Assembly: GCA_017417465.1 (NCBI GenBank)
Contig: JAFPZD010000208.1
Location: 1-43,983, forward strand
Direction: 5' to 3'
DNA from: Prevotella sp.
GTDB lineage: Bacteria > Bacteroidota > Bacteroidia > Bacteroidales > Bacteroidaceae
Length of the DNA: 43,983 bases
The notes under the pieces: model-generated
Told to the model about the DNA's origin: nothing
What the model saw: the letters and a program-made list of their open reading frames with translations, nothing else
Databases searched by the model: none
Program-made: the position numbers and the translations under genes
In this document: piece after piece, positions 9,646 to 18,047 of the stretch
Layout: the number at the start of each line of letters is the position of its first letter
How positions within the stretch are numbered: the first letter of the stretch is position 1

Positions 9646-10689
9646 CTATGGGTCTGTTTTTGTTTTGATGATGTTTCGAATGATGTGGTATGGATGGCTT
9701 AAGGACGATAGGGAACCTTCGATGGTTGCACGCTTGCCTTCCACAGCATGAACGAATGCAGCTATTTCATTGAAATAGCCCTGTGAATAGATTTGGTTGT
9801 TTGGCAAAGTGGGGACAAAGCTGTTGCGATGGTAGAGGTGTTCGTGCATCATGGAGTGTGAATACATCTTCTCAGTGGGTATTCCGATTATTGATGATGG
9901 AGTAGGGGTGAATGTGAGATCTTCCATTTGTGCAAGATGGTAAGTGCCTGCCGTGGTGCATACTTTCAGTGACTCTTCAGCACCAGCCCATGAGTAGGCG
10001 GTGGAAAGTTCAAGGGTGCCGACAGCGTGTGCATGCTGGAGCATGAGAATGTATGAATCTTTAGCGACTTGCCGACAAGCAAGGATCTCAGCCTTTCCAA
10101 ACAGATGACACACGAGGTCGAGTGGATGGATATAGAGTTCAGTCAGTGCATCGCCCTCAGGATAGGCGCCTGTGGAATAATGCAGGTCGTAGTTAATAAG
10201 CCGCTCCTTGTCGAGCCGTTTTTTCAGCAGTTGCACAGCAGGCGCATATCGCTTTTGCAAACCAGCCATTGCTACTGGCGAGCGGTGAAGCGTCTGTAGG
10301 TCTATCAGTTGGTTAAGCTCTTCCTCTGACAGGCAGGGCGGCTTCTCGATGAAAAGGGACTTCCCGCTTCGCAGGACTCGCGAAGCGATTAGGAAATGGG
10401 CTGAGGGCGAGACCGATACGAATACGCCTTTGACCGTCTCATCGACGAGGATGCTGTCGAGCGAAGTCGTGGCTGTCACATGTGGGTATTTGTGCTCTAT
10501 CAGGTGCGCTTTTCGCTCTGAGGTGACACAGATGAATTTCAGCGGCACGCCGAGATAGTGAAGTACGGGATAAAGGTTGGTCAAAGCGTGCTGGCCCATA
10601 CCCACGAAGGCATATTGATTGTGGAACGTTTGGGCGAGGTGTCGCTCTGTGCGGAGACGCTTGTAGCGGGCTATGAGTTGTCGTATCAT
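9646..10689 (-). CDS. Gfo/Idh/MocA family NAD(P)-dependent oxidoreductase
   Basis: This 347-residue protein has an N-terminal Rossmann domain: YAFVGMGQHALTNLYPVLHY (about 26-45), then the segment VFVSVSPSAHFLIASRVLRS and the family hallmark SLFIEKPPCLSEEEL, whose EKP motif includes the catalytic-site lysine. The C-terminal half is the alpha/beta substrate domain with LYIHPLDLVCHLFG, containing the histidine expected near the active site. Substrates of this family are usually sugars or cyclitols. The gene overlaps the radical SAM gene by 4 bases (ATGA), so the two are translationally coupled and likely act on one substrate. The promoter must lie upstream of the radical SAM gene. Confidence 0.85.
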   Translation of the reverse strand: MIRQLIARYKRLRTERHLAQTFHNQYAFVGMGQHALTNLYPVLHYLGVPLKFICVTSERKAHLIEHKYPHVTATTSLDSILVDETVKGVFVSVSPSAHFLIASRVLRSGKSLFIEKPPCLSEEELNQLIDLQTLHRSPVAMAGLQKRYAPAVQLLKKRLDKERLINYDLHYSTGAYPEGDALTELYIHPLDLVCHLFGKAEILACRQVAKDSYILMLQHAHAVGTLELSTAYSWAGAEESLKVCTTAGTYHLAQMEDLTFTPTPSSIIGIPTEKMYSHSMMHEHLYHRNSFVPTLPNNQIYSQGYFNEIAAFVHAVEGKRATIEGSLSSLSHPYHIIRNIIKTKTDP

Positions 10690-11783
10690 AATTGCTTCAT
10701 AAGTTGATGATAAGTTGTGCGTGGGTCATCGGTCCACTGATATTGCCCATAGAACTGCTCGATAAGGCGTTTGGGTAACAGTCGCTCCATGTTGCGAACA
10801 AGAATGATGTCGTACTTGCGGTGGAAGTTTATCCAGCAGTCGTTGCAGTTCTTGGAATAGTGGCACTGCGTTTGGCACGACAACGAGCTGTTGAAAATCT
10901 CGTCGAGTGACTGACGGTGGATGTTGCCGAGTACGACATCAAGGTTTTGGCAGAGCGGTACGTCACCGTTGCTGTGAATGACGAGACAGCTCATAATGCT
11001 TTGACAGCGTAGTCGAAGATGTCCTTTGCGCCACTGGTCATAGAGTGCAATATAGTCGTAGTTCTCAGGAAAGTACTCTTCTTTTATGGAGAGGAGCGAA
11101 GATGGCTCTGCCGTTGACTTCCTTGATTGAAAAGGCGACCACTCCTCTGTCCTCGGGCGAGAGGCTGGGGGTGAGGCAACCATATAGGCCATTGTGCCGT
11201 AGATGCCAATGCGCACATCCACGCCGTAGTGCTTAGCCACGTCGATGACAAACGCCATGTCGTCGAACGAATTCCATGGCGACAGGCAGAACATCAGCGA
11301 CAGCGGCACTTCGTCCTTGAGGGCCTCCACCACCTGAATCACCTTGTCGTAGCCATCGCATCCCCGCATGTGCTGGTATGTCTCGCGTCCGCCGTCGAGA
11401 GAGACGTACAGATGCCGAGGCAGATAGTGACGGACGGCATCTATGACACGACGGGGCGCGAGACAGTTTGACAAAAGCGTATAGTTAGGATGATGCTCAT
11501 GGAACCATGCCATGATCTCATGGGCCTGCGGGTGAAGAACGAATTCGCCACCTTCCAGACCCACTGTGGTTCGTTTGGTCACGCAGCGGCTCTGCATGAT
11601 TCGCTGAATGTCATCCAGCGACAAGTGTACGATGGGCTTCTGCCAGATGTTGCAGTGCTTGCAGTGCGACTGGCAAGCCGTGGTGGAGTAAATCATCAGT
11701 TGTGACAGCCGTTTGTGGTGTGGCCGCACGATGTTGTTCAGGTAAAGGTAGCCATTGTAGGCGTAGTCATAAAAGCTGTACAT
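10686..11783 (-). CDS. Radical SAM/SPASM-type protein
   Basis: This 365-residue protein has the radical SAM cluster motif CQSHCKHC (CxxxCxxC) at about residue 38, followed by GLEGGEFVLHP (the GGE motif) and YVSLDGGRETYQHMRG. The C-terminal third is cysteine-rich (CQSIMSCLVIHSNGDVPLC, CQTQCHYSKNCNDC), as in SPASM domains that bind extra iron-sulfur clusters. Such proteins modify peptides, sugars or other small molecules; the substrate is not evident. At residues 205-235 or so a segment (ASPPASRPRTEEWSPFQSR) interrupts the domain and is encoded by a copy of the G/C-rich palindromic repeat family, see findings. It is coupled to the downstream oxidoreductase by a 4-base overlap. Confidence 0.87.
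   Translation of the reverse strand: MYSFYDYAYNGYLYLNNIVRPHHKRLSQLMIYSTTACQSHCKHCNIWQKPIVHLSLDDIQRIMQSRCVTKRTTVGLEGGEFVLHPQAHEIMAWFHEHHPNYTLLSNCLAPRRVIDAVRHYLPRHLYVSLDGGRETYQHMRGCDGYDKVIQVVEALKDEVPLSLMFCLSPWNSFDDMAFVIDVAKHYGVDVRIGIYGTMAYMVASPPASRPRTEEWSPFQSRKSTAEPSSLLSIKEEYFPENYDYIALYDQWRKGHLRLRCQSIMSCLVIHSNGDVPLCQNLDVVLGNIHRQSLDEIFNSSLSCQTQCHYSKNCNDCWINFHRKYDIILVRNMERLLPKRLIEQFYGQYQWTDDPRTTYHQLMKQL
11085..11175. repeat. Palindromic repeat copy inside the radical SAM gene (in frame)
   Basis: The plus strand reads TCCTCGGGCGAGAGGC followed by TGGGGGTGAGGC. This is a degenerate form of the 'CTCCCCTTGGGGAGGGG-TTGGGGGTGGG' family that is intergenic at 35175-35220. The radical SAM reading frame passes through it without interruption. 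Confidence 0.6.
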
Positions 11784-11907
11784 ATTCTTGTTCGAGTTTC
11801 TATTTAGAATAGTCCATCATGCGAGGGAAAGACTGCATAAAAGCAGGACAACTTGAGACATTTGACAGCCATTTTGCCACGGAAAGCGTACGAGGATGCT
11901 TCGTTTA

Positions 11908-13713
11908 TCACCAAGTTATTCTGACACCCAATGGCAAGGAGAGCGTTCGCGGATGCTCCGTGCGGTAGGTTTCGATGTCGCTCTGCGTCGGGATGAAGTA
12001 TTGTAGGCTTGGCTCTGCGAACAACCCGATGCTGGGCGTCAGATGGTATTGCAAGCCGATGCCAACGGTGGTTGAGAACTGCCATGGCGCATGTAAAGTG
12101 GTCTTTTCACTAAGCTCATACTGGCCATACACATAGTAGTTGGAGTGCAAGGTCGAACGGACGGGGATTTCGGTTGTCAGTCCGAGACTGCCATAGAGGC
12201 TCCATCGTTTTCCGGCATACATATTATATATACCCTTCATGGGAATGCCCAGATAGTGGATGGTCTGCTGCTCGTGAATGGTATTGCCGTCTGCTCCCAT
12301 CTCAAAATCAGACGACAGCCGACTGTAGCTCAGGCCAGACTCTATGCCAAAGTGGTTGGTCAACCTGTATTTTAGGGCCAGTGACCAAGTGACAGGCATC
12401 TGATGATGGCTCGTTCGCAGAATCTTGTCCTCACCAGAACGGTTCGCGTTGTTCAGGGCGATGCGCATGACGACGCTGCGGGTTTGGGCAGTCACGACGT
12501 CGGGATTGTTTGCCAGATAGGCAGCATAGTCTGACCAGTTGTCAATGCTGCTCGGAACAATTAAAGTGGGTGCGGGCTGAGACTGATCATCAGACGCGAC
12601 GGTCCTAAAGCTGAATGGCCGGTTGTAGCGATGCTGCTCGTCGAGTTGTCCAGCGTAAGCCAGTTCGAAAGACCATTTCTTGTCATGGCTGTTGGGGAAT
12701 GAATAATTGAGGTTGGGAATGGGGTTCTCCTTAAGCGTGCTGTCCTTGGCAGTCGGCGTACCTTCGGGGGTGCGCTGCGCGTACCCTTGGTTGCCGAGTG
12801 GCGACGGTTTCTCTGCCGTGGAGTCGTGTTGGGCTATGTGTTTAGGTAGACCCGACGGAGAACCGTCGGGAACGGCGGCTTGGGGTGGAGGGGGAGTGCG
12901 GTCGGAGGAAGATAGGCTCTTTGAATGCTGGATAGATGGTTTGGCAACACTCCTGCCCTCAGAACTGTGACGCTGTTCCAACTCAATAACCATAGGCTCG
13001 TCAGAACCTGCGGATGCCACGCTATCTGTTGTGGCCACCACTTTGGATGAGTCGCCCATCAACGGCTCTTCGTCGGTCTGCTCGCCTATATACCGTACCA
13101 GAGCTACCCCGATAGGAAGTAGCAGCAGAAGCATGGCAGCCCAATATTGCTGCATCATCTTGCGCAGCATCTTCTTGGCCCGTGCTAGCTGCGATGACGA
13201 CGAATGTGGCTCGATGCCCAGCATGGCGGCAATCTCTTTGTGCGACAACCCGTCGAACACCGATAATCGGAACACTTGTCCGTAGCCTTTAGGCAGCCTG
13301 TCTATCATTTTAACCACCTCGCTCAGTGGAATGTCTCTCACGAACTGCTCCTCGCTCTCTGCGACGCTCGTTTCTTGCGTCCCGTTGGTAGTCAGCGACC
13401 AAGGGTCGAGCGTTGCCTCGTTTGTCTCGTCAAGTGGCACCGTTGGCAATGCCATCAGCCGATCCTTGCATTTCGATGCAACATTTCTTGTAATGGCCGT
13501 CATCCAAGCCTCTGCACACCGTACATCGCGCAGCTTGTCGAACGAAGTGAAGATGATCACGAAAGCATCGTGCAGCACATCGTCCACCGTCTGCTCATCA
13601 CTGACATAGTGTCGGCATACGCCTCTCATCCTCTGGGCGTATGCCTTGTACAGTTCTTCAAGTGCATCCGTGTCACCCTGCCTGCACCGTTCTATCAACC
13701 GTGTATCATTCAT
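11908..13713 (-). CDS. ECF sigma factor fused through a transmembrane helix to an outer-membrane beta-barrel
   Basis: This is a 601-residue single reading frame. Residues 1-86 form sigma region 2 (LIERCRQGDTDALEELYKAY, DDVLHDAFVIIF, AWMTAITRNVA). Residues 128-186 form sigma region 4 with helix-turn-helix HKEIAAMLGIEPHSSSSQLA and basic KKMLRKMMQQ. Residues 190-209 are one hydrophobic helix (YWAAMLLLLLPIGVALVRYI), whose flanking positive charge puts the sigma part in the cytoplasm. Residues 210-345 are a polar Ser/Pro/Thr-rich spacer. Residues 346-601 show alternating aromatic strands (WSFELAYAG, SLALKYRLT, FGIESGLSYSRL, SLYGSLGLTTEIP, STTVGIGLQYHLT, IGLFAEPSLQYFIP) and end LPLGVRITW with the C-terminal aromatic residue typical of barrels. 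Sigma and barrel proteins are normally separate. Function inferred: envelope sensing coupled to transcription. The reading frame shows no stop or frameshift. Confidence 0.85.
   Translation of the reverse strand: MNDTRLIERCRQGDTDALEELYKAYAQRMRGVCRHYVSDEQTVDDVLHDAFVIIFTSFDKLRDVRCAEAWMTAITRNVASKCKDRLMALPTVPLDETNEATLDPWSLTTNGTQETSVAESEEQFVRDIPLSEVVKMIDRLPKGYGQVFRLSVFDGLSHKEIAAMLGIEPHSSSSQLARAKKMLRKMMQQYWAAMLLLLLPIGVALVRYIGEQTDEEPLMGDSSKVVATTDSVASAGSDEPMVIELEQRHSSEGRSVAKPSIQHSKSLSSSDRTPPPPQAAVPDGSPSGLPKHIAQHDSTAEKPSPLGNQGYAQRTPEGTPTAKDSTLKENPIPNLNYSFPNSHDKKWSFELAYAGQLDEQHRYNRPFSFRTVASDDQSQPAPTLIVPSSIDNWSDYAAYLANNPDVVTAQTRSVVMRIALNNANRSGEDKILRTSHHQMPVTWSLALKYRLTNHFGIESGLSYSRLSSDFEMGADGNTIHEQQTIHYLGIPMKGIYNMYAGKRWSLYGSLGLTTEIPVRSTLHSNYYVYGQYELSEKTTLHAPWQFSTTVGIGLQYHLTPSIGLFAEPSLQYFIPTQSDIETYRTEHPRTLSLPLGVRITW
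12755..12880. repeat. Palindromic words in the spacer-coding part of the sigma-barrel fusion
   Basis: CCCGACGG-AGAA-CCGTCGGG (12852-12871) is a perfect 8-bp hairpin. Nearby, GTACCTTCGGGGG and TGCGCTGCGCGTACCC form further short dyads. They encode the Pro/Gly-rich periplasmic spacer (VPDGSPSGLPKHIAQ to RTPEGTPTAKD). Their nature resembles the intergenic palindromes of this genome. Confidence 0.5.
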
Positions 13714-13776
13714 CGAAAAACAATTCGTCTCTATCTATTAGGTCGCAAAAAGAGGAAAAGACTGCACGGGTCTCTC

Positions 13777-13844: not shown

Positions 13845-13932
13845 CCTAGAAGTCTGGCGGTCTTCTCCTAGAAGTCTGGCAGTCCTCTCCTAGAAGTCTG
13901 GCGGTCTTCTCCTAGAAGTCTGGAAGTCTTCT
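13845..13932. repeat. Four tandem copies of a 22-bp palindromic unit
   Basis: The units are 13845-13866, 13867-13888, 13889-13910 and 13911-13932. Each is CCT followed by AGAAGTCTGGCAGTCTTCT or a variant with 1-3 changes. The 19-base core is a near-palindrome: AGAAG/CTTCT and CTG/CAG pair. A second array of the same unit occurs at 43426-43535. No spacers are present, so this is not CRISPR. Confidence 0.9.
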
Positions 13933-13960
13933 CGGAACGGATGTTTCATGGGTCTCTCAA

Positions 13961-14912: not shown

Positions 14913-18047
<3,135 letters not shown>

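Follow-up and report, generated by a model that had tools for sequence, protein, structure and literature searches.

Dma (dual membrane-spanning anti-sigma) proteins are the closest described systems. According to PMC13088901, anti-sigma factors of the Dma1/Dma2 type possess an N-terminal cytoplasmic anti-sigma domain, a single transmembrane helix, a long disordered tether and a C-terminal barrel, and the cognate ECF sigma factor is encoded by a separate adjacent gene. In Dma3 of B. thetaiotaomicron (bt_2778-2779), another member of the family, the adjacent ECF21 sigma gene is replaced by the protein's own N-terminal sigma-factor domain; by that account, very little else is known of Dma3, and the dma1 and dma2 mutants stayed hypervesiculating when it was deleted (PMC13088901). 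A similar pair in P. vulgatus, M0N98_03760/03761, consists of a sigma gene followed by an anti-sigma gene, the product of which is predicted to span the periplasm and to end in an outer-membrane barrel; in a system of this type loss of the anti-sigma factor lengthens the O-antigen, and EcfO of B. fragilis was grouped with such sigma/anti-sigma-barrel pairs, as cited in PMC9308784. Fusion of a sigma factor to a membrane anchor has been described for IutY of Pseudomonas putida (ECF243), where the sigma factor is joined to an anti-sigma domain in the aerobactin cell-surface signalling system and is activated via Prc/RseP proteolysis (PMC8999054). The text on Dma3 was the only one found in the literature on a fusion of sigma factor and barrel; a fuller account may be contained in the 2024 PNAS paper which first described Dma3.

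Results and Discussion

Domain structure of the fused protein

The window, i.e., the whole stretch of DNA that was analysed, comprises 43,983 nucleotides from a Prevotella sp. The gene considered here and the parts of its product are as follows.

11908..13713, (-): the entire fused gene, a single frame of 601 codons and a stop
13477..13653, (-): ECF sigma region 2, residues 21-79 (Pfam PF04542; fold match to region 2 of E. coli sigmaE)
13165..13320, (-): ECF sigma region 4, residues 132-183, with PHSSSSQLARAK (Pfam PF08281)
13087..13140, (-): the only transmembrane helix (residues 192-209, approximately), which contains Pro200 and has basic residues towards the sigma domain
12679..13086, (-): tether, residues 210-345, disordered and rich in Ser and Pro (pLDDT below 50 over residues 210-342; composition and length)
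11911..12678, (-): outer-membrane beta-barrel, residues 346-601, with C-terminal Trp (domain search, structure model and fold match)
12445..12537, (-): helical insert in the barrel domain, residues 393-423 (structure model)

A single frame of 601 codons thus encodes both sigma regions, the transmembrane helix, the disordered tether and the barrel. The initial annotation had described a sigma factor, one membrane span, a polar spacer and a barrel in a single chain, and Pfam matches and the structure model bear this out; since the predicted model shows a barrel, structure prediction does not speak against the fusion. The protein belongs to the ECF sigma factors, with both regions above the curated cut-offs and a score of 71.8 bits with TIGR02937 (cut-off 42.9). 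Residues H170, S172-S174, Q175 and L176 of region 4 were invariant in a 17-row alignment of fused relatives; in the AlphaFold model this region was of low confidence (pLDDT 42-49). By sequence similarity, the sigma part resembles unfused sigma factors located beside Dma-like genes; the sigma partners of Dma proteins belong to the ECF21 group.

The net charge of the 20 residues before the transmembrane helix exceeded that of the residues after it in 99 of 106 fused frames, a bias which suggests an N-in topology. The proline of the helix is missing in 17 of the 106 frames, including those of the Bacteroides lineage; it is therefore not required, and its role as a universal protease signal was dropped from consideration. 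Estimated tether lengths were only 47-58 residues in some fused members, and 47 residues may be short for spanning the periplasm. The barrel is OmpA/OprF-like, with strong conservation of its core and of the C-terminal segment; in the helical insert, the segment NW.DYA is kept in close relatives. An internal start, from which the barrel half alone would be produced, was rejected by inspection; Met186/187 is constant in close relatives and missing in divergent ones.

The window protein shares its single helix, long tether and C-terminal barrel, as well as the possession of a cognate ECF sigma factor, with the Dma1/Dma2 type, but the sigma factor is encoded in the same frame and the anti-sigma domain is absent (PMC13088901). 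Because that domain was tested for and is absent, the protein is not a Dma anti-sigma factor. M0N98_03760/03761 and EcfO likewise differ in being two-gene systems with an anti-sigma factor, whereas the window protein is encoded by one gene and has none (PMC9308784). With Dma3, compared here by its published description, it has the same architecture, namely an N-terminal sigma factor on a Dma-type membrane and barrel protein. By that description it is a protein of the Dma3 type, and the earlier statement that no such protein was known does not hold, a protein of this layout being already in print (PMC13088901).

Occurrence in relatives

Among 181 loci, 118 frames contained matches to sigma factor and barrel with no stop between them, and 106 of these were distinct. 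The search for the same fusion in close genomes, which the initial annotation had suggested, was thus successful. The fused relatives came from many assemblies, one-contig genomes included (G024), and nearly all belonged to the window's own family, i.e., Prevotella and kin. Among the matches listed for 148 genomes of the order, G507 alone had a full-length one outside the family, and its frame was confirmed. Fused frames of the same clade also occur in the genus of G296, which is probably Bacteroides (compare Dma3 of B. thetaiotaomicron); at least 8 of its 95 genomes have a confirmed fused frame (L140, L162-L167, L170), and two others, G151 and G204, have only broken copies among the matches listed.

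The genome of the window itself contains a second single-frame fusion on contig C7, with 37-42% identity over the matched parts. It contains also, on C116, an ordinary pair of genes for a sigma factor of 182 aa and a barrel protein of 428 aa, which overlap by 4 nt (ATGA); about 56 residues precede the transmembrane helix of the barrel protein. The two-gene arrangement which the initial annotation had called common in Bacteroidales, a sigma gene followed by a gene for an anti-sigma, transmembrane and barrel protein, is therefore found in the same genome.

Such an overlapping pair could suggest that two genes were joined in the window by an error of assembly or by a frameshift, and the frames of five close relatives are indeed disrupted by stops or frame changes (L037, L102, L119, L169, L171), in L037 exactly at the junction of sigma factor and transmembrane helix. 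An artefact is considered virtually impossible and is already refuted by the existence of single-frame relatives; there are 106 distinct ones from many assemblies, so that the relatives do not all have two separate frames. Besides, one frameshift would not delete the anti-sigma segment, and selection on the sigma and barrel parts also argues against an artefact. In 14 close pairs, dN/dS was mostly 0.05-0.25 in sigma factor and barrel and mostly higher in the tether; four higher values for sigma factor or barrel were among the least diverged or patchy pairs. Sigma factor and barrel are under purifying selection. Contig ends cut two further close relatives, leaving the barrel half of L025 and the sigma half of L030.

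Twelve "open frames" of 599-647 aa (L126-L137) were rejected as fusions, since all of them are two adjacent in-frame genes with a stop between. In these unfused pairs, TAA or TAG separates the two genes and the barrel start follows a few codons on; L130 and L132 have a second stop between the sigma and barrel frames. This layout is close to a fusion.

Origin of the fusion

The barrel proteins of unfused relatives have a cytoplasmic segment of about 50-60 residues ahead of the transmembrane helix, which in Dma proteins is the anti-sigma domain (PMC13088901). In the 106 distinct fused frames the helix follows the sigma HMM match at a distance of -2 to 8 residues (median 2), and thus the anti-sigma segment is gone, in agreement with its absence as noted initially. 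An anti-sigma domain of the IutY type between sigma factor and helix is absent from these frames as well; IutY itself is not known to have a barrel in its chain.

A single clade, with support of 100/100, united 42 of the 43 fused representatives in the sigma tree; it was nested among unfused sigma factors, and an unfused pair, L149, was its sister (support 99/96). One fusion, L138, was placed outside the main clade; a single origin was not rejected (p-AU 0.204), and a second independent fusion event was therefore not adopted. The barrel tree gave a similar result, with only 2 changes needed. Judged from these comparisons, the ancestor of the fusion was a two-gene sigma/Dma pair, whose anti-sigma segment of about 50 residues has been lost.

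Promoter-like elements and neighbouring genes

A promoter-like element is present before the fused gene and again just past its stop, ahead of the neighbouring gene:

13727..13766, (-): promoter-like element of the fused gene, TGCAGTCTTTT, in which GCAGTC lies 52 nt ahead of the ATG
11796..11837, (-): second copy of the element, TGCAGTCTTTCCC...GGACTATTCTAAATAGAAAC, before the radical SAM/SPASM gene
10686..11783, (-): radical SAM/SPASM gene, predicted target, which recurs beside the fused gene in relatives
9646..10689, (-): gene for a Gfo/Idh/MocA oxidoreductase, overlapping the radical SAM gene by 4 bp

The consensus is TGCAGTCTTT-N-GGACT, with a second half that varies by clade. The window deviates from it, since the second element has TTTC for TTTT and the gene's own element has GCGACCT and lacks GGACT. 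Upstream sequence of 150 nt or more was available for 102 of the 106 loci, and exact TGCAGTCTTT was detected in 84 of these; on the downstream side, 73 of 106 fused genes had it at a distance of up to 400 nt, compared with 0 for four control motifs; when one mismatch was allowed, the numbers were 92/102 and 90/106, with 0 to 2 for the controls. Ten of the 102 genes, among them the C7 copy of the same genome, were without the element even at one mismatch. Among close relatives, TGCAGT occurred in 46 of 48 upstream regions and GCAGTC in 47 of 51 rows, beginning 51-52 nt ahead of the chosen start codon in 44 of the 47. Upstream of 42 unfused sigma genes exact TGCAGTCTTT was found once, in L149, and TGCAGTATTT in 19 cases; most of the rest had neither. 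The element thus tracks the sigma clade, because unfused relatives have TGCAGTATTT but L149 has TGCAGTCTTT, and according to L149 the change in the element (A to C at position 7) seems to have preceded the fusion.

A two-part motif gave 24 matches in 13 of 15 genomes scanned (none in G037 and G081), versus 4 for the reversed control, and 22 of the 24 were within 1.5 kb of a fused gene. The bare motif TGCAGTCTTTT was not enriched genome-wide in the window's genome (3 matches versus 2 for the control); its weight as evidence comes from its position. Scans for promoters of the sigma-70 type and terminators added nothing, nor did an Rfam scan, the sole match of which was one tRNA, far off.

Several further observations on these regions were made. 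The two remaining matches of the two-part motif, L200 (G097:C177) and L201 (G120:C114), are located away from any known fused gene and look by inspection like remnants; in L200 the element is followed by an apparent truncated start of a radical SAM-like gene. By subclade, the second half of the element reads GGACTATATAAATAGAGA, CTCTTAACAATAAAAGA or TATCTATCCCTATAGAGA; in the subclades L031-L035, L107-L110 and L111-L115 it is often an inverted repeat, e.g., CTCCTTTTAATAAAAAGGA and TCTATCCCTATAGA. By eye, the two arms of this repeat seem to vary in concert, and it may act as an operator or form a hairpin in the leader. Positions 13845-13933 of the window, which lie upstream of the fused gene, contain four copies of a 22-bp tandem repeat, CCTAGAAGTCTGGCAGTCTTCT, with 91% matches.

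When 17 genes of the window were tested against 37 loci (flanks up to 6 kb), only the radical SAM and Gfo/Idh genes recurred; the other 15 were found in none. A readable start follows 74 of 76 downstream copies of the element, and three kinds of gene cover 70 of them: a small lipoprotein (38, by signal sequence), a radical SAM/SPASM protein (16, identified from the window gene and L096) and a methyltransferase (16, identified from three examples). Three examples of the lipoprotein, when scanned, matched no Pfam family at cut-off. From the types of target gene, and from the O-antigen effect described for an unfused relative in P. vulgatus (PMC9308784), it might be guessed that the predicted targets act on surface glycans.

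On the same strand, positions 14913-18047 encode a MetH-like protein of 1044 residues, in which a homocysteine methyltransferase domain occupies residues 417-720 and corrinoid domains occupy residues 835-1031; no Pfam match indicated a pterin-binding or an activation domain. The N-terminal 416 residues yielded no Pfam family and no convincing PDB sequence match; by eye, these residues resemble methyltransferases of the uroporphyrinogen-decarboxylase type.

Being direct repeats on either side of the gene, the TGCAGTCTTT elements could serve in recombination or termination and not as promoters. This reading appears very unlikely, in view of the spacing from the start codon, nearly constant at 51-52 nt among close relatives with GCAGTC, and of the change from TGCAGTATTT to TGCAGTCTTT with the sigma clade. 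A further point against it is a copy (L195, 2321-3176, G000:C111) before a methyltransferase gene like the usual partner, on a contig where no fused gene was found. The element is more plausibly a promoter of the fused sigma factor.

Proposed mechanism

A probable explanation is that the protein is a functional, self-regulating and membrane-tethered ECF sigma factor, inhibited by its anchor and freed by proteolysis, which would drive its own gene and one adjacent operon, and which is a Dma3-like descendant of a two-gene sigma/Dma system. One protein would span both membranes: the last helix of the cytoplasmic sigma factor would run straight into the single inner-membrane helix, and the flexible tether would cross the periplasm to an outer-membrane barrel of the 8-strand type. 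With the anti-sigma segment lost, the membrane anchor alone would keep the sigma factor off, because region 4 lies within a few residues of the bilayer. An event at the outer membrane, e.g., a ligand, a toxin or failed assembly of the barrel, would result in a cut within the helix or close to it, in the manner of IutY, and the freed sigma factor would then transcribe the following operon as well as its own gene. The sequences suggest that the anchor is inhibitory and that the sigma factor controls both its own gene and the neighbouring one; the nature of the inducing signal and release by a protease of the RseP type are speculative. An RseP-type protease is encoded in the window's genome (184.9 bits, cut-off 147.55).

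The sigma factor could also work while tethered, transcribing nearby promoters from the membrane, with the barrel acting by conformation or clustering and without cleavage. No sequence feature demands cleavage, the helix proline not being universal (missing in 17/106), and the predicted targets adjoin the gene, which would fit a factor that is synthesised and anchored close to where it is encoded. We regard this as unlikely, since the distance of about 0-8 residues between region 4 and the span leaves little room for core enzyme and DNA, and since IutY, the only fused ECF sigma factor known to have a characterised activation of this type, needs cleavage by Prc/RseP (PMC8999054).

A variant of the proteolytic explanation, doubtful yet with a better chance than activity in the tethered state, is that the barrel is a sentinel and not a ligand sensor: if the assembly machinery failed to fold the protein's own barrel, the unfolded chain would be cut and the sigma factor released. 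The strong conservation of barrel core and C-terminal segment would fit, as would the response of the unfused sigma/anti-sigma-barrel pair of Phocaeicola vulgatus to the toxin BcpT, which switches on many of the genes that bacteroidetocin A, an inhibitor of BamA, also induces (PMC9308784). The latter evidence comes, however, from unfused relatives, and ligand binding would be an equally possible role of the conserved helical insert (393-423).

The explanation by anchor inhibition and proteolytic release may be extended, with slightly less than an even chance of being correct in all parts. The entire trans-envelope circuit would then reside in one polypeptide, with the anchor as sole inhibitor without an anti-sigma domain; TGCAGTCTTT, followed by a second half specific to each clade, would be a private promoter that serves almost only the gene itself and one adjacent operon, often of the surface-modification type; and promoter specificity (A to C at position 7) would have changed before the fusion.

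Experimental Section

Fused frames: Stop-to-stop frames only were considered; the 106 distinct frames are the 118 frames minus identical sequences.

Phylogenetic analyses: Sigma trees contained 43 of the 106 fused rows, after reduction at 80% identity and omission of rows with 150 or fewer aligned residues, and 34 unfused rows, obtained by reduction at 85% from 42 with sigma scores of 100-190. This score range omits six close relatives with a sigma half only, i.e., the five disrupted ones (L037, L102, L119, L169, L171) and L030, which is cut by a contig end.

Neighbouring genes: The loci L038-L074 minus identical sequences, plus the window, were used for clustering.

Conclusions

The overall layout was already in print for Dma3; its spread, the missing inhibitor part and the likely target promoters were worked out here. 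If the proposed mechanism is true, one protein would read an event at the outer membrane and directly supply the transcription factor, with no partner but a protease. The predicted promoter and target operon adjoin the gene, and thus the idea is open to a reporter test. A handle is gained on Dma3, which is the least understood protein in a family linked, in gut Bacteroides, to vesicle production and colonisation. The fused proteins also provide a natural experiment in doing without an anti-sigma domain.
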